Source of the DNA: a virus
Reading direction: 5' to 3' (one strand)
DNA length: 33,093 bases
Virus record (IMG/VR): IMGVR_UViG_3300020473_000009
Location: 1 to 33,093 of that record
Below, piece by piece: positions 2,276 to 23,563 of this stretch (the first letter of the stretch is position 1; each line of letters begins with the position of its first letter). Below the pieces are notes generated by a model. The model saw only the letters and a list, made by a program, of their open reading frames with translations. It ran no database searches and was not told the origin of the DNA. Made by a program: the position numbers and the translations under genes.

Positions 2276-2732
2276 CGGTGTTCTAGACCCATTCGTTGAC
2301 CGTGTTCAGGCGCTACTAACCCAGCTTGATGCCGGCCAACGCAAAGCACTGGCCAGAGACATTAGCCGGCACCTGCGCGGCAGCCAGGCAAAACGCATAC
2401 GTGAAAATAAGAACCCGGACGGGAGCCCTTACGAAGAACGCAAACCTCAACCTGAAATGCGCAAGCGTAAAGGAAGCCTGCGCATGTTCCGCAAAATACA
2501 CCGCACAAAAAACCTGAAGGCCAGAGCGTCAGCCGATGAAGCCAGCGTGGGCTTTACTGGCTTTGCTAACCAAGTTGCGCGAGTACACCAGTACGGTTTA
2601 CGTGACAGGGTAAATGAACGAGGCCTGCAGCATAAATACCCTGAGCGGGAACTGCTAGGCCTGACCGATGAAGAGCGAGATTACATAGAAGAAACAATGG
2701 TTAAGCACATCGATGATGCGCTTAATGGATAG
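2268..2732 (+). CDS. S: Tail completion / virion morphogenesis protein S
   Basis: This 154-residue protein matches the P2 gpS (phage virion morphogenesis) family: LDAGQRKALARDISRHLRGSQ at residues 18-38, a basic middle with NPDGSPYEERK, and the C-terminal VHQYGLRDR and YPERELLGLTDEE motifs. It starts with GTG overlapping the R stop. It is the last plus-strand gene before the minus-strand accessory cassette, and its last 11 bases overlap the 3' end of the convergent antirepressor gene. No terminator is visible between the two. Confidence 0.9.
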   Translation: MTDGVLDPFVDRVQALLTQLDAGQRKALARDISRHLRGSQAKRIRENKNPDGSPYEERKPQPEMRKRKGSLRMFRKIHRTKNLKARASADEASVGFTGFANQVARVHQYGLRDRVNERGLQHKYPERELLGLTDEERDYIEETMVKHIDDALNG

Positions 2733-3537
2733 CCAAAACACGGAAGATCCAACAGCGCATCGTGCGCTCTTCCAGTTTACTTCTGACCACCTGATTACTG
2801 GCCATAAACTTTGGCTCTTTTGAACCGGCCAACACCCGCCGGCATGCCGACAAACTCGGCATAGACACTTTCGCTTTCGCTGCCACCTTAGCCAGATGCG
2901 GCAAGTTCAATGCAATAAAACCTTCGTCTTTGCTGTGGTCCAGTTTATCCAGGCCAATGTATTCCACCGCATCCCAAAACTCACCCACTAGCGGATCAAC
3001 ATCCGGCTCGACATGTGCGTAGCCCAGCTTGTCAATATCAGGCGTTGGCACATTGAGCATTCTTGAAACCTGATCTAACTGCTGATAAATAGCGTCACGC
3101 TTTTCGGGATTACGCTCAGCCTCTAGCCTATCCAACAGCTTCAACCTTGTATTATGTGCCGCCAGTTGTTGACTAGCCGAAGGAAGGCGGCGGCTATTGA
3201 CCTTGCTTGCTCGCTTTTCGACTTCGATAAAATAGCGCCTTGCTTGGCGACCTTTGTCATTGTTTTCGACCATAGCGAGCTCTTTGGCCATATCTAGCGT
3301 GATATGATATTCCTTTCGGTTGTGCCCACCCTTTCCTTTGCTTCCCAGATTTGGGAAGCAAAGAACGAAATCCTCACCCTCTATAAAATTATATGACTGA
3401 ATTCTTTCAGTTATCCAAGTGGCAAAAACTTTCCCGACCTCTAAAAACCCATGAAGCTTTCTTGCCTCGCAAAGTTGAACGGATTCATTTTGTATTTCAC
3501 CGGTAAACACCGGTACTAACTGTGAAGACATACTCAT
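2722..3537 (-). CDS. AntA/AntB-type antirepressor 1 with a primase-like C-terminal domain
   Basis: The protein has 271 residues. Residues 18-110 form the AntA/AntB antirepressor domain (ARKLHGFLEV, FIEGEDFV, YHITLDMAKELAMVEN, ARRYFIEVEK). Residues about 185-267 form a second domain that resembles the C-terminus of the phage's own primase-helicase (FWD, LDHSKDEGFIALNL, MRCWIF). Antirepressors of this family bind and inactivate phage repressors; the target here is inferred. It is last in the minus-strand operon toxin-antitoxin-P22_AR_N-AntA. The start is at 3537 behind GGAGGTGCTCA, and it overlaps the upstream gene by 4 nt. A 28-bp perfect palindrome lies in the gene at codons 59-67. Confidence 0.85.
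   Translation of the reverse strand: MSMSSQLVPVFTGEIQNESVQLCEARKLHGFLEVGKVFATWITERIQSYNFIEGEDFVLCFPNLGSKGKGGHNRKEYHITLDMAKELAMVENNDKGRQARRYFIEVEKRASKVNSRRLPSASQQLAAHNTRLKLLDRLEAERNPEKRDAIYQQLDQVSRMLNVPTPDIDKLGYAHVEPDVDPLVGEFWDAVEYIGLDKLDHSKDEGFIALNLPHLAKVAAKAKVSMPSLSACRRVLAGSKEPKFMASNQVVRSKLEERTMRCWIFRVLAIH
3336..3363. repeat. Perfect 12-4-12 palindrome inside antirepressor 1
   Basis: The arms CTTTGCTTCCCA and TGGGAAGCAAAG flank the loop GATT. It encodes LCFPNLGSK on the minus strand, the loop between the two conserved halves of the AntA domain. Confidence 0.93.
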
Positions 3538-3851
3538 TGAGCACCTCCGAAATACTGACGCACCTTGTCGCGTAAATGCTCAGCCACTTTATTTGGGTTG
3601 ATAGAGTACAACCACGCCGCTAATTTACGTAATGGTAAACATGTCATTTCTCTGTTTTTTCCATCCAAGCCAACCATCGCGATAATCGCGATCGTTGAAT
3701 TGAACTTGTCACGCAATTTGGCGTGCTGGGATTGCCAGTTTAACCCCATATTCTCAACAACCGATTTCATCGCCACAAAAGGCTGATTGTTGTGATCCAC
3801 CATTACTAAGGTGTCACCGTGAAACGGTACGGGTAGTATCTGCTCTTGCAT
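3534..3851 (-). CDS. P22_AR_N-type antirepressor N-terminal domain protein
   Basis: The 105-residue protein consists of the P22 antirepressor N-terminal domain only: LPVPFHGDTLVMVDH, FVAMKSVVENMGLNWQSQ, then REMTCLPLRKLAAWLYSINPNKV. Full antirepressors normally continue into a C-terminal domain. Here the chain ends after RDKVRQYFGGAQ and the next gene begins, so P22_AR_N and AntA may act as a split pair. I chose ATG 3851 over a GTG at 3857 because GGAGG lies 5 nt before it. It overlaps AntA by 4 nt. A 27-bp near-perfect palindrome lies at codons 52-60. Confidence 0.83.
   Translation of the reverse strand: MQEQILPVPFHGDTLVMVDHNNQPFVAMKSVVENMGLNWQSQHAKLRDKFNSTIAIIAMVGLDGKNREMTCLPLRKLAAWLYSINPNKVAEHLRDKVRQYFGGAQ
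3671..3697. repeat. 27-bp near-perfect palindrome inside the P22_AR_N gene
   Basis: The arms CAACCATCGCGAT and ATCGCGATCGTTG flank a single A, with one mismatched pair. It encodes STIAIIAMV, just before the conserved EMTCLPLRKL motif. Confidence 0.9.
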
Positions 3852-3863
3852 GCTCACCTCCGC

Positions 3864-4157
3864 TTAAGCTGTCTGGCATGCTTTGATGACATGCTCCGGG
3901 TCTTTCTCAATGGCTTGGATAAGAACACGCGCCGGACCAGTCGGCTCACGGCGGCCTTGCTCCCAGTTGCGCAAAGTGGAGACTTCAACCCCAATCAGCT
4001 TTGCAAACTTAGGCTGGCTGAGATTCACCTGTTGGCGAATACGCTTTAAGCGTGTGGACGCAACGAAACGCTCACGCGCCGGAGCCCGCTCCCCTTTTTT
4101 GATTTCGTCCATTTGCTCTACGCTTTCCATCAGTTCGTTAAATAGTGCATCTTTCAT
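3864..4157 (-). CDS. Xre/HigA-type antitoxin (NadS-like)
   Basis: The 97-residue protein has a helix-turn-helix at residues about 38-72 (RLKRIRQQVNLSQPKFAKLIGVEVSTLRNWEQGRREP), followed by a short helical tail. It follows a RelE-family toxin with a 2-nt gap, the toxin-first order typical of higBA pairs. It should neutralise the toxin and repress the promoter at 4501-4529. I chose ATG 4157 over an upstream GTG because AAGGG stands 8 nt before it. It is co-transcribed with both downstream antirepressors, which ties the toxin system to lysogeny control. Confidence 0.87.
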   Translation of the reverse strand: MKDALFNELMESVEQMDEIKKGERAPARERFVASTRLKRIRQQVNLSQPKFAKLIGVEVSTLRNWEQGRREPTGPARVLIQAIEKDPEHVIKACQTA

Positions 4158-4159
4158 GG

Positions 4160-4471
4160 TTACCACCCTTCTACAATGTTGCGCAGCTTCTTCAGTTGCT
4201 CATCGGTTAAGTTGTCTTGTTCGTTCTTGCCAAAAATAAAAATCATCCAGTGCTGGTTCAGCGCTTTGGCGTAATAGTAGATAACGCGGAACCCACCGCT
4301 TTTGCCCTCACCCTCGCGAGCCCACCTAACCTTTCTAAGGCCGCCGCTCTTTTTCATAACGGGACCAAGTTCCGGCTTGTCGGCAAGCGCCTGTTGCATG
4401 TCAGCGTAAGCGTCATCGCTCATCATTTGCTTAATGCGCTTCGTAAATATGGGAGTCTCAACAAATAACAT
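4160..4471 (-). CDS. RelE/HigB-family toxin
   Basis: The 103-residue protein matches RelE/HigB2-like mRNA interferases: an N-terminal ETPIFTKRIKQMMSDDAYADMQQ helix pair, then GGLRKVRWAREGEGKSGGFRVIYYY with the basic and aromatic residues that position mRNA, and WMIFIFGKNEQDNLT near the end. It is first in the minus-strand operon, with the antitoxin 2 nt behind. An upstream TTG at 4501 is open, but ATG 4471 gives the normal length. A phage toxin of this type may stabilise the prophage or block competing phages; the role is inferred. Confidence 0.87.
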   Translation of the reverse strand: MLFVETPIFTKRIKQMMSDDAYADMQQALADKPELGPVMKKSGGLRKVRWAREGEGKSGGFRVIYYYAKALNQHWMIFIFGKNEQDNLTDEQLKKLRNIVEGW

Positions 4472-4500
4472 AAGTAAGCCTTTGGCGTATGGTGGGAACA

Positions 4501-4529
4501 AGTATTGACGTTAAAAAACAGTAAGTCAA
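4501..4529 (-). promoter_or_regulatory. Promoter of the toxin-antitoxin-antirepressor operon
   Basis: On the minus strand TTGACT is followed by a 17-base spacer and AATACT, ending 29 nt before the toxin ATG. A TTGAC/GTCAA inverted repeat overlaps it and may be the antitoxin's operator. Confidence 0.6.
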
Positions 4530-19838: not shown

Positions 19839-22523
19839 ATGAACGTACAACTAAGAGAAGAGGTGGTAACACGCCTCCTGCGAGACTTTGAATTTAAAAC
19901 AAATAACAAAGAATTTTTTCAGCAAGGCCGTTGTCCAAGCTGTGGCAAAAAAGAATTATACGCGCCGGCTGAAACCCCTTGGGTAGTTCGTTGCGGTCGC
20001 ATGAATAAATGCGCTGCCGAATACCACATTAAAGAGTTATACCCCGAACTTTTCGAATCATGGTCTGACCGATACAAGCCAACACCTAAAAGCCCGAATG
20101 CATCGGCAGAAGCCTATTTGCATACTGGACGAGGCTTTGATGTTTCCAAAATAAAAGGTTGGTACACGCAAGGTAGTTACTACTGCACTGAACGGCAAAT
20201 TGGTACCGCCACAGTTAAGTTTGAGTTACCCAATGGGGCATCGTGGGAGCGCTTCATTGATAAGCCTCAGCGCTTTGGAAAAATGAAGGCTAACTTTGTG
20301 GGTAAATACAAAGGCCAGTGGTGGCAACCACCAAGCGGCATTCCTGAAGACACCAAAGACGTATGGTTAACCGAGGGTATCTTTGATGCAATAGCGCTGA
20401 TCCAGTCCGGCATTACTGCAGTCAGTTTAATGAGCTGCAACAACTACCCAAATGACGCTCTTGATGCGCTGGAAAAGGCCTGTAAAAAACAAGGCCGTGA
20501 ATTGCCTAAGCTTGTATTTGCTCTCGATGACGGCCCTGCCGGTGAGTCTTTCACACGCAAGTTCGTCAACTACGCACGTAAAGCGGGCTTCCGGGCAACG
20601 GCAGCACAGCCACCCAAAGGAAAAGTAAAGCTGGACTGGAACGAGTTGTTTCAGCGCGGGCGACTGACAGATAAACACGTAAAAGATTACCTTTATCTGG
20701 GCAGTTTACTGATCGCAAAAACAGCGACTGAGAAAGCCCGGTTAATGCACCAGAAAACGCAGCAAAAAGATTTTCCATTTCGATTCGATAACCGTCTATT
20801 CTGGTTCAAAATTGATTCCGACCGCTACGTAAAAGCAATGAGTTCGCTGGGATATAGCGCAGAAGACGGCATAGAAGCCAGTGAAAAAGATATTGAGAGC
20901 GCTTTAAAAGAGTCTTCATCGGTTGTCGAATTAGCTGCTTGTTATCCGGAAGCGCTCTATTACCAAGCGCACGAAGTCACTGACGAAAGCTGGTACTATT
21001 TTCGTGTTAGTTTTCCGCACGACAATGCGCCTATTAAAAACACCTTTAGCGGCGGTCAGTTATCCAGTGCCAGCGAATTTAAAAAGCGTTTAATGAGTGT
21101 TGCGCCTGGCGCGGTATGGAGCGGCTCCAGTGGTCAGCTAGACCGACTTATGAAACAGCAATTATACGACATTAAGCGCGTTCAGGGTGTGGACTTCGTC
21201 GGTTATTCACGAGAATACGGCATTTACATACTGGGCGACCTGGCCGTTAAAGACGGTGTTACCAAGCCGCTTAATGACGAAGATTTTTTTGACTTTGGCA
21301 AGCTCAACATTAAGACGTTGAACAAATCAGTTTCTCTTAATGTTAATTCGGACTTAAAAGAGCTCAACCCAGTATGGGAAAAAAACCTTTACACCGCGTT
21401 TAAAGAGAACGGTTTAATTTCACTGGCTTTCTGGTTCGGCTCGCTATACGCCGAGCAGATTCGGGCGCTTGATAAAACCTACCCGTTCCTTGAGCTTATT
21501 GGTGAGCCGGGCTCTGGTAAGTCAACGCTAATCGAATTTATGTGGCGGCTTTGCGGACGTCCAGACGAAGAAGGTTTTGACCCAGTGAAGTCGACTGCCG
21601 CTGCACGCGCACGGCGATTGTCCCAGGTGGCCAACTTACCCGTTGTTCTAATTGAGGGTGACCGTGGCGATGAAAAAGACATGAAGCAAAAAAGTTTTGA
21701 CTGGGACGAATTAAAGACCGCCTACAACGGTCGTTCGCCGCGAAGTCGAGGCGTAAAGAATGCGGGCAACGAAACCTATGAGCCGCCTTTCAGAGGCACA
21801 ATAGTCATATCGCAAAACGCAGAGGTTCAGGCTTCGCAAGCTGTACTCGAGCGTATCATTCACATAAAAACAGACCGTAAAGGCCACAACACCGATACAC
21901 GACAGGCAGCGAGAGCGCTAGAAACCATGCCGATTGAACAGGTGTCTGGCTTTATTCTTAAGTGCGCCATAGCTGAGAAACGAGTGATTGCGTTGTACAA
22001 AGAAAAAGTGCCGCATTACGAATCCCTGCTTGCTGAAAATGACGACCTGAAAACCCACAGGATAATAAAAAATCACGCACAAATAATGGCCATGCTTGAC
22101 TGCCTGACATTGGTCACTGATTTTAAAGTTAGCCAGATTGAAGCAGCGAAAGAGAAGTTGGTTGAACTGGCGTTGCAGCGACAGCTAGCCATAAGCGCAG
22201 ACCATAAATCGGTTCAGCAATTCTGGGACGTGTTCGACTACCTAGAAGAAAAGTTTGAGTGGCCAGTAGTCAACCACTCAAAAGACGACGGTTTAATAGC
22301 CGTGAATTTAAACCACATGGAAGAAGAAGCTGGCGAGTTCCGTCAGAAACTTCCACCGCTTCCTGACCTTAAAAAGCACCTTAAAGCGTGTAAGTCTCGC
22401 AAGTTCCTTGAGGTTAAAACCGTGCGCAGTGCGGTGAACGAGTACATAAATAAAGGTAGTGGAATAACCGGGCCAAGGAAGCCGGCTAGTGTTAAATGTT
22501 GGGTATTCGAAAGGGAGCGTTAA
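19839..22523 (+). CDS. Toprim primase-helicase (replication protein)
   Basis: The 894-residue protein has an N-terminal zinc ribbon (C32, C35, C52, C58), a Toprim domain (TEGIFDAIAL with E179 and D183; FALDD with D230/D231), and an ATPase with Walker A GEPGSGKST at 555-563 and a probable Walker B near VVLIEGD. It should prime and unwind for theta-type replication, as in P4 alpha-like systems, instead of P2 gpA rolling circle. Residues about 791-893 form a C-terminal domain also found in antirepressor 1. The ribosome site is GGAGGGAG. The likely origin is the iteron region at 25588-25902. Confidence 0.9.
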   Translation: MNVQLREEVVTRLLRDFEFKTNNKEFFQQGRCPSCGKKELYAPAETPWVVRCGRMNKCAAEYHIKELYPELFESWSDRYKPTPKSPNASAEAYLHTGRGFDVSKIKGWYTQGSYYCTERQIGTATVKFELPNGASWERFIDKPQRFGKMKANFVGKYKGQWWQPPSGIPEDTKDVWLTEGIFDAIALIQSGITAVSLMSCNNYPNDALDALEKACKKQGRELPKLVFALDDGPAGESFTRKFVNYARKAGFRATAAQPPKGKVKLDWNELFQRGRLTDKHVKDYLYLGSLLIAKTATEKARLMHQKTQQKDFPFRFDNRLFWFKIDSDRYVKAMSSLGYSAEDGIEASEKDIESALKESSSVVELAACYPEALYYQAHEVTDESWYYFRVSFPHDNAPIKNTFSGGQLSSASEFKKRLMSVAPGAVWSGSSGQLDRLMKQQLYDIKRVQGVDFVGYSREYGIYILGDLAVKDGVTKPLNDEDFFDFGKLNIKTLNKSVSLNVNSDLKELNPVWEKNLYTAFKENGLISLAFWFGSLYAEQIRALDKTYPFLELIGEPGSGKSTLIEFMWRLCGRPDEEGFDPVKSTAAARARRLSQVANLPVVLIEGDRGDEKDMKQKSFDWDELKTAYNGRSPRSRGVKNAGNETYEPPFRGTIVISQNAEVQASQAVLERIIHIKTDRKGHNTDTRQAARALETMPIEQVSGFILKCAIAEKRVIALYKEKVPHYESLLAENDDLKTHRIIKNHAQIMAMLDCLTLVTDFKVSQIEAAKEKLVELALQRQLAISADHKSVQQFWDVFDYLEEKFEWPVVNHSKDDGLIAVNLNHMEEEAGEFRQKLPPLPDLKKHLKACKSRKFLEVKTVRSAVNEYINKGSGITGPRKPASVKCWVFERER

Positions 22524-22525
22524 CA

Positions 22526-22780
22526 GTGAATACAGTGTTTTTGCTATTGGCCAGGTACGAACGTTCACCGGTACCACTGGGTGAAGTGTGCGAAGAGTTC
22601 TTTGGCATAAAGGAAAAACACGCTTCCATGTTGGCCGCCTCGCAATCGCTGCCAGTACCAACGTTCAAGCTTCGAGACTCTGAGCGCGCAAAGTGGATGG
22701 TCGACTTACGCGACTTAGCCGAACACATCGATAACAAACGCCGGCAGGCGTTAAAAGATTACACAGAGGTGAGAACATGA
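22526..22780 (+). CDS. PrtN-like (pyocin activator family) regulator
   Basis: The 84-residue protein matches the small pyocin-activator PrtN family: NTVFLLLARYERSPVPLGEVCEEFFGIKEKHASMLAASQSLPVPTF, then DSERAKWMVDLRDLAEHID. It starts with GTG behind AGGGAG, 2 nt after the primase stop, and its own stop overlaps a 27-codon ORF. Members activate pyocin genes in Pseudomonas; in phages their targets are unknown. Confidence 0.8.
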   Translation: MNTVFLLLARYERSPVPLGEVCEEFFGIKEKHASMLAASQSLPVPTFKLRDSERAKWMVDLRDLAEHIDNKRRQALKDYTEVRT

Positions 22781-22868: not shown

Positions 22869-22964
22869 CTCCCCCGTTTGGGGGAGCTCGAATTTTATAC
22901 ACAAATAGTTTTCCCCAAAACTGGGGAAAAATCCCAATAAGGTTTTCGCCAGATTTGGCGAAAA
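22869..22964 (+). repeat. Three tandem palindromes upstream of antirepressor 2
   Basis: 22869-22886 is CTCCCCC-GTTT-GGGGGAG. 22909-22930 is TTTTCCCCA-AAAC-TGGGGAAAA. 22943-22964 is TTTTCGCCA-GATT-TGGCGAAAA. All are perfect and have 4-nt loops. The third shares its 14-base core with the palindrome in the following gene. None is followed by a T run. Confidence 0.92.
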
Positions 22965-22978
22965 GTATGGAGAGAATT

Positions 22979-23563
22979 ATGACTAACTTAGTGAAAGTTT
23001 TTGAATATCAAATAACCGACGAGTTTGTTCAGTCGTGCAATGCGCGTGACCTTCACAATTTCCTTGAAGTGCGTCGAGATTTTACAAACTGGGTTAAGGC
23101 TAGAATTGAAAAATATGGGTTTATTGAAGGAGAGGATTACTCAATTGTTCAAAATTTGACCTCGCCAGATTTGGCGAGCTCAAAATCCCGCCAACGGGTA
23201 TTAACTGACTACTACATAACACTCGATATGGCCAAAGAATTGGCAATGGTAGAAAACAACGAGGTCGGCCGAAAAGTCCGGAAGTACTTCATCGAAGTAG
23301 AAAAGCAGGCCATGAAAGAACTCGAAATGAGAGCTAACCGCAGCCTTTCCATTGACGAAGCTCGAGTAAAAGTCAAAGACACCCCATCACTTAAAACGCT
23401 AACCGTACTGCAGAAGCAGGCGGTAGATATGGCGCGCAGGATAGACGCGGCGAAAGGTGAAAGCGAACGCAAAACCGCTTACTCCATTCTCTGCTACATA
23501 AACGACGCCAGAGGACAACCAACACCCAGCCTTAAAAAACTACTAGGAAAAGATGATGACTGA
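22979..23563 (+). CDS. AntA/AntB-type antirepressor 2
   Basis: The protein has 194 residues. The AntA/AntB domain (ARDLHNFLEVRRDFTNWVKARI, GFIEGEDYSIV, DYYITLDMAKELAMVENNEVGRKVRKYFIEVEK) is followed by a helical tail ending in [14 protein letters not shown]. It is a paralogue of 2722-3537 but lacks that protein's primase-like domain. The region between the conserved halves (NLTSPDLASSKSRQR) differs fully from the paralogue and contains a palindrome. The start is ATG 22979 with GGAGAG ahead. It lies in the early operon between the PrtN-like regulator and SSB. Confidence 0.85.
   Translation: MTNLVKVFEYQITDEFVQSCNARDLHNFLEVRRDFTNWVKARIEKYGFIEGEDYSIVQNLTSPDLASSKSRQRVLTDYYITLDMAKELAMVENNEVGRKVRKYFIEVEKQAMKELEMRANRSLSIDEARVKVKDTPSLKTLTVLQKQAVDMARRIDAAKGESERKTAYSILCYINDARGQPTPSLKKLLGKDDD
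23161..23178. repeat. Palindrome inside antirepressor 2
   Basis: CTCGCCA-GATT-TGGCGAG, extendable by TTTGA/TCAAA beyond one mismatched pair. It encodes SPDLAS at codons 61-66, the same protein loop as the palindrome in antirepressor 1. Confidence 0.92.

Follow-up and report, generated by a model that had tools for sequence, protein, structure and literature searches.

Genes of the AntA, P22_AR_N, Bro-N (including DinD), KilA-N and ORF6N families contain palindromes with arms of about 8-17 bp in the stretch that encodes a single variable hairpin segment, and the position of these palindromes is constant within each family, whatever the host, phage or chromosomal context. This nucleotide signal recurs in the same place, family by family, in five families with DNA-binding or presumed DNA-binding domains, in phages and chromosomes and across phyla, and it suggests that antirepressor genes have a built-in DNA-level function or mutation mechanism that has gone unrecognised. 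Our leading explanation, a tentative one, is that the palindrome inside the gene may be the binding site of the gene's own protein and may be rewritten through template switching or recombination. The signal could explain the hypervariable antirepressor loop, may reveal either a portable operator hidden in the gene or a natural device for diversification built into it, and warns against interpreting variation in the loops of these families as ordinary selection on amino acids.

Palindromes in the window

The window is the whole 33,093-nt stretch of viral DNA that was analysed. The original prediction placed palindromes with 4-nt centres at 22869-22886, 22909-22930, 22943-22964 and 23161-23178, and each of these proved to be exact. 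Likewise, the 14-base core CGCCAGATTTGGCG is common to the third leader unit and the internal copy, as had been proposed, and the leader units do translate to the claimed peptides IVFPKTGEKSQ and VFARFGEK. Exact matches to TCSCCANNNNTGGSGA occur in the window at 22912, 22946 and 23162 only. The strongest short-loop palindrome of the window, at 3336-3363, is additional to the four first noted. The relevant features are as follows, where L003 denotes the nearest relative of the window.

2722-3537, minus strand: second AntA-family gene (antirepressor 1); PF08346, E 1.9e-24
3336-3363, minus strand: coding palindrome of antirepressor 1; CTTTGCTTCCCAAATCTGGGAAGCAAAG in gene sense; 12-bp arms; AntA loop matching that of antirepressor 2
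3534-3857, minus strand: P22_AR_N antirepressor domain gene; PF10547, E 1.3e-36
3671-3697, minus strand: coding near-palindrome of 27 nt in the P22_AR_N hairpin; CAACGATCGCGATTATCGCGATGGTTG; perfect homologues in L336, L337 and L352
22863-22892 (extension approximate), plus strand: leader unit 1; TTTGATCTCCCCCGTTTGGGGGAGCTCGAA; decayed TTTGAGCTC-type element; perfect core 22869-22886; homologous unit in the L003 leader
22909-22930, plus strand: leader unit 2; TTTTCCCCAAAACTGGGGAAAA; identical unit in the L003 leader
22943-22964, plus strand: leader unit 3; TTTTCGCCAGATTTGGCGAAAA; matches the internal element of L003 in type
22979-23563, plus strand: AntA-family antirepressor gene (antirepressor 2); PF08346, E 5.5e-26
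23155-23184, plus strand: internal coding palindrome of antirepressor 2; TTTGACCTCGCCAGATTTGGCGAGCTCAAA; one mismatch; perfect core 23161-23178; codons of a predicted beta-hairpin tip (low-confidence model)

The two AntA genes score 91.4 and 86.5 bits against PF08346 (Pfam cut-off 27), and the gene at 3534-3857 scores 125.7 bits against PF10547 (cut-off 30.7). Compared with dinucleotide shuffles, the window is enriched in perfect hairpins, with 18 versus 10.7 expected for arms of at least 7, 9 versus 2.75 for arms of at least 8, and 4 versus 0.75 for arms of at least 9. The excess is thus strongest at long arms, and three of the four hairpins in the last class are at AntA loci.

Two neighbouring loci were also observed. 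The gene directly 5' of the AntA leader, at 22496-22780, is of the pyocin-activator PrtN family (PF11112, E 1.1e-19), and a regulatory link is possible. On the minus strand at 3864-4501, the P22_AR_N and AntA genes are preceded by a small gene and an HTH gene that together resemble a HigA/HigB-type toxin-antitoxin pair.

The palindrome in AntA relatives

We sampled AntA loci from viral contigs and bacterial genomes by similarity search, and found a palindrome in most of them, in the equivalent loop and mostly about 60-80 nt 5' of the DMAKELAM codons. The palindrome sequences are diverse (ACTTTTCGCC..GGCGAAAAGT, CTATTCCCC..GGGGAATAG, TTTGAGCTCGCC..GGCGAGCTCAAA and TTTTACTCA..TGAGTAAAA), with family-specific cores that are partly conserved (CGCC or CCCC in AntA, CGAATTCG in KilA-N). 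When compared with synonymous-codon shuffles, 123 of 179 distinct AntA loops were significant at p<=0.05, with a mean best score of 8.45 versus 4.74. Named phages with the AntA-loop palindrome include those of Pseudomonas, Bordetella, Lactobacillus, Ruminococcus, Acinetobacter and a cyanobacterium; the palindrome falls below significance in several others, such as phiLC3, A118 and Staphylococcus phage 71. Two or more tandem units are present in the loops of L005, L026, L027, L035, L075 and L079.

In an AF2 model of the AntA domain (mean pLDDT 68, low confidence), the palindrome codons correspond to residues 37-47, which are predicted to form the end of a strand (32-38) and the turn before the next strand (52-59). 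A Foldseek search with this model returned no credible match, and a sequence search returned no credible solved homologue.

Three further loci have features of their own. L297 contains a non-coding copy of the element at 1983-2004, about 600 bases 3' of the AntA loop copy. In L296 (5376-5564), a single reading frame contains four strong palindromes, one of them TTTTCGCCAAAATTGGCGAAAA, in a span of about 190 bases that is outside any recognised AntA domain. L137, which is titled Chryseobacterium, has an enterobacterial-type AntA loop, possibly through contamination.

Family specificity of the signal

The suggestion that the palindromes are tied to antirepressor genes and that their structure is conserved more than their sequence holds across several families. 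In a 120-nt test that matches the one applied to the other families, 127 of 184 AntA loops were significant at p<=0.05 against synonymous-codon shuffles. Mid-domain windows of Bro-N genes, including the DinD type, were significant in 56 of 79 cases (examples are GACCATTTTGCTGACGTCAGCAAAATGGTC and CCAAAGGGTGGGTACAAATTGTACCCACCCTTTGG), as were 18 of 24 KilA-N and 13 of 16 ORF6N sequences compared with synonymous-codon shuffles. The P22_AR_N genes of L336, L337 and L352 contain palindromes with 11-13 bp arms, and the one tested, L337, gave p 0.00. Rha shows a weak signal (2/8). By comparison, the controls gave 8 of 224 for flanking-gene windows, 1 of 29 for integrases and 3 of 26 for HTH_3 regulators. 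These counts come from similarity searches, so that the sample is phylogenetically unbalanced and counts related sequences repeatedly; the shuffles used uniform synonymous codons in most tests, and short motifs are the basis of family assignment for some loci. About 30% of family members have no significant palindrome, and E. coli dinD has a degraded version only.

A scan for coding palindromes whose arms measure at least 11, run over all collected loci, placed 95 in a Bro-like group, as judged by a motif test. The remaining 44 include further AntA genes, two KilA-N and one ORF6N, and many of the others look like chance occurrences or antisense frames.

Several Bro-N loci stand out individually. 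In L376, a DinD-type gene contains a perfect coding palindrome of 30 bp, and the gene adjoins a sequence resembling a type I restriction S subunit. The 17-bp-arm palindrome in the Bro-N gene of L379 contains an in-frame TAG, which may mean that the palindrome has grown through the reading frame or that the gene is a pseudogene. The 2.9 Mb L150 genome (Pasteurellaceae bacterium Macca) gave 22 Bro-N and 21 Rha matches, many of them identical, which suggests repeated prophages.

Concerted change of the two arms

A gapless alignment of the Bro-N palindromes shows that 96.8% of cells pair, and that pairing is lost when one arm is shifted by 1-3 columns. Relative to the commonest pair, 83 cells differ by a two-sided change and only 2 by a one-sided change. 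The same pattern is seen in the AntA DFSPxLAKS group (18 two-sided versus 0 one-sided changes), and KilA-N has 77 two-sided changes. Among the six-base centres of AntA palindromes, 12 of 35 distinct sequences have their reverse complement in the set and none has its reverse or complement, a control that coding limits make imperfect.

Closely related genes often differ mainly at the palindrome. In one AntA gene group, flanks that are roughly 90-99% identical surround a hypervariable island in which both the palindromes and the unit numbers differ. L012 and L028 are mosaics in which arms of two types are combined. In E. coli prophages, sequence matches often start just 3' of the palindrome, and alleles that are alike downstream have different palindromes. 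By sequence comparison, then, these elements have the features of quasi-palindromes remodelled by template switching, in that the arms change jointly and inverted spacers are found. Template switching is reported to homogenise arms and to invert spacers (PMC8604942), and the mechanism has been described in yeast genes and RNA genes (PMC8604942, PMC8794818). The pattern of change is what template switching or cassette exchange would leave.

These results bear on an explanation that we consider possible and rank close behind self-binding, namely that the palindrome is a diversification device only. It would have no binding partner; template switching between the arms would keep the palindrome perfect while producing multi-base in-frame changes of the loop, and lineages with such a device would persist. 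The concerted double changes with hardly any intermediates, the loop centres found in both orientations, the expansion of tandem units and the mosaic arms (L005, L012 and L028), the unlike leader units of L003 and the precedent in yeast genes and RNA genes (PMC8604942, PMC8794818) are all consistent with this explanation. Diversification alone, however, leaves unexplained both the persistence of the palindrome across phyla and its restriction to DNA-binding families, given that flanking genes, integrases and HTH_3 regulators lack the signal.

Complementarity without sequence conservation, arms of up to 17 bp and variable centres would also be expected of a structure-specific DNA element, that is, an extruded cruciform or single-stranded hairpin that is recognised whatever its sequence and that acts in recombination, replication or regulation. 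The partly conserved family cores argue against such an element, which is also a candidate without a known partner, and we regard it as improbable.

The level of constraint

Since protein-preserving shuffles abolish the signal, the palindrome is not a property of the peptide. Symmetry at the peptide level was rejected: reading frame and codon phase vary between genes and families, and a single DNA element has two readings among AntA genes, FSPNLAK or VFAKFGEN.

An RNA element, by which we mean an mRNA hairpin that controls translation or stability or that pairs with a leader or antisense RNA in c4-type control, is also an improbable explanation. Selection on RNA should favour G.T pairs, yet the non-Watson-Crick cells of AntA, Bro-N and P22_AR_N comprise 11 G.T versus 17 A.C in about 1646 pairs, which is no wobble excess. 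KilA-N, with 18 G.T versus 5 A.C, is more compatible with an RNA element, although 11 of the 18 G.T cells are at the two outermost positions, the site of a Lys/Arg codon choice. Because G.T is no commoner than A.C outside KilA-N, a sense-strand RNA switch is not favoured. Thus, the constraint is more probably on the DNA than on RNA. The leader RNA of the window does fold far better than shuffles (z -5.1), which any set of palindromes would do likewise. No Rfam family, c4 antisense RNA included, matches anywhere in the window at gathering score, and leader copies of the element are exceptional.

Leader units of the window and L003

The element is normally within the coding region and has no leader copies. 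Second copies of the core outside the loop occur at about chance level, except for tandem loop units and the leaders of the window and L003. The L003 leader has about six units compared with three in the window. Unit 2 is identical in sequence between the two. The element type in the window gene (TTTGA.CTCGCC) is that of unit 1 in the L003 leader, and the type in the L003 gene (GTTTTCGCC) is that of unit 3 in the window leader. The upstream units, judged by their sequences, look like copies of the loop element.

It had been proposed that the leader units are stored loop cassettes or, alternatively, an RNA switch or operator set. The first proposal gains from the loop-like units and from the types swapped between leader and gene in the window and L003, a comparison of two genomes that is no proof of exchange. 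As for the second, the RNA switch is not supported as a general explanation, given the lack of a wobble excess in AntA, Bro-N and P22_AR_N and the rarity of leader copies, and the cores of the six L003 leader units differ from one another, which makes a specific operator set doubtful.

A proposed self-encoded binding site

The explanation that we place first is that the palindrome would act in cis, as a DNA site belonging to the protein encoded around it. The gene product, presumably a dimer, would bind the palindrome in its own gene and so limit its own transcription; the palindrome would then be a portable operator, inherited along with the gene. Since site and loop consist of the same bases, a template switch from one arm to the other, or a swap of loop segments among genes, would rewrite both in a single step. 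The three leader units of the window would be extra, partly decayed copies that arose by the same local process.

We favour self-binding because the protein itself is the partner common to all cases, and the Bro domain has been reported to confer DNA binding on the antirepressor ANT8 (PMC4257102). The family specificity relative to controls, the constant position, the concerted changes, the hypervariable island and the two loop orientations are consistent with it. Several observations argue against it. Copies of the core at the promoter, as expected of an operator, are no commoner than about chance level outside the window and L003 leaders, and the six L003 units have unlike cores. Ordinary operator binding needs no complementarity at fully variable positions. 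About 30% of members have no significant palindrome. Moreover, as one DNA sequence is read in two frames, site recognition cannot be a simple readout of the loop residues. Self-binding can explain the family specificity and template-switch diversification can explain complementarity at freely varying positions, and both may hold. A broader proposal, which we put forward as a less likely possibility, is that several phage-type DNA-binding families carry their own target in the codons of the recognition hairpin, so that one mutational event would alter target and reader together and specificity would be self-encoded and co-inherited.

Comparison with dispersed repeats and known palindromic systems

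Tandem and leader copies give the element a unit-like appearance, as would be expected if these genes were the insertion sites of a mobile palindromic repeat akin to REP or the Rickettsia palindromic element. A single unit, however, overlies native loop codons and adds no length. The exact pattern TTTTCSCCANNNNTGGSGAAAA matched 67 IMG/VR stretches, and most of the matches are in AntA genes at the loop (about 49 of about 70 for one exact version), which is not the distribution of a scattered generic repeat. A looser pattern was rare in 12 bacterial genomes, often no commoner than a control read backwards. A dispersed palindromic repeat of the REP or Rickettsia type was rejected, as many copies in unrelated or intergenic places were not found, and we consider insertion of a mobile repeat very unlikely.

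The Rickettsia palindromic element is a palindromic unit of coding sequence that is read in more than one frame; the palindromes described here differ in being confined to one functional gene class and in lying over native loop codons. In P1/P7-type phages, the structured c4 antisense RNA is linked to the antirepressor, whereas the window has no Rfam match and leader copies are not general. Autoregulatory operators are likewise palindromes associated with genes for DNA-binding proteins, but here the site is within the codons of the presumed recognition hairpin, is hypervariable in sequence and has no repeat at the promoter. A literature search found no description of palindromes in AntA, Bro-N, KilA-N or ORF6N genes; since it covered open-access papers, the novelty is provisional. 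Template-switch quasi-palindromes (PMC8604942, PMC8794818) share arm homogenisation, spacer inversion and multi-base concerted change with our elements, but the published descriptions are of a mutation process at scattered sites, not of a conserved element with a fixed place in particular gene families. Finally, mitochondrial genes of Nematomorpha contain perfect inverted repeats of up to 284 bp inside functional protein-coding genes (PMC6649704). Those repeats are mitochondrial and belong to one animal phylum, whereas the palindromes reported here are about 20-40 bp long and occupy one site in specific gene families across bacteria and phages.
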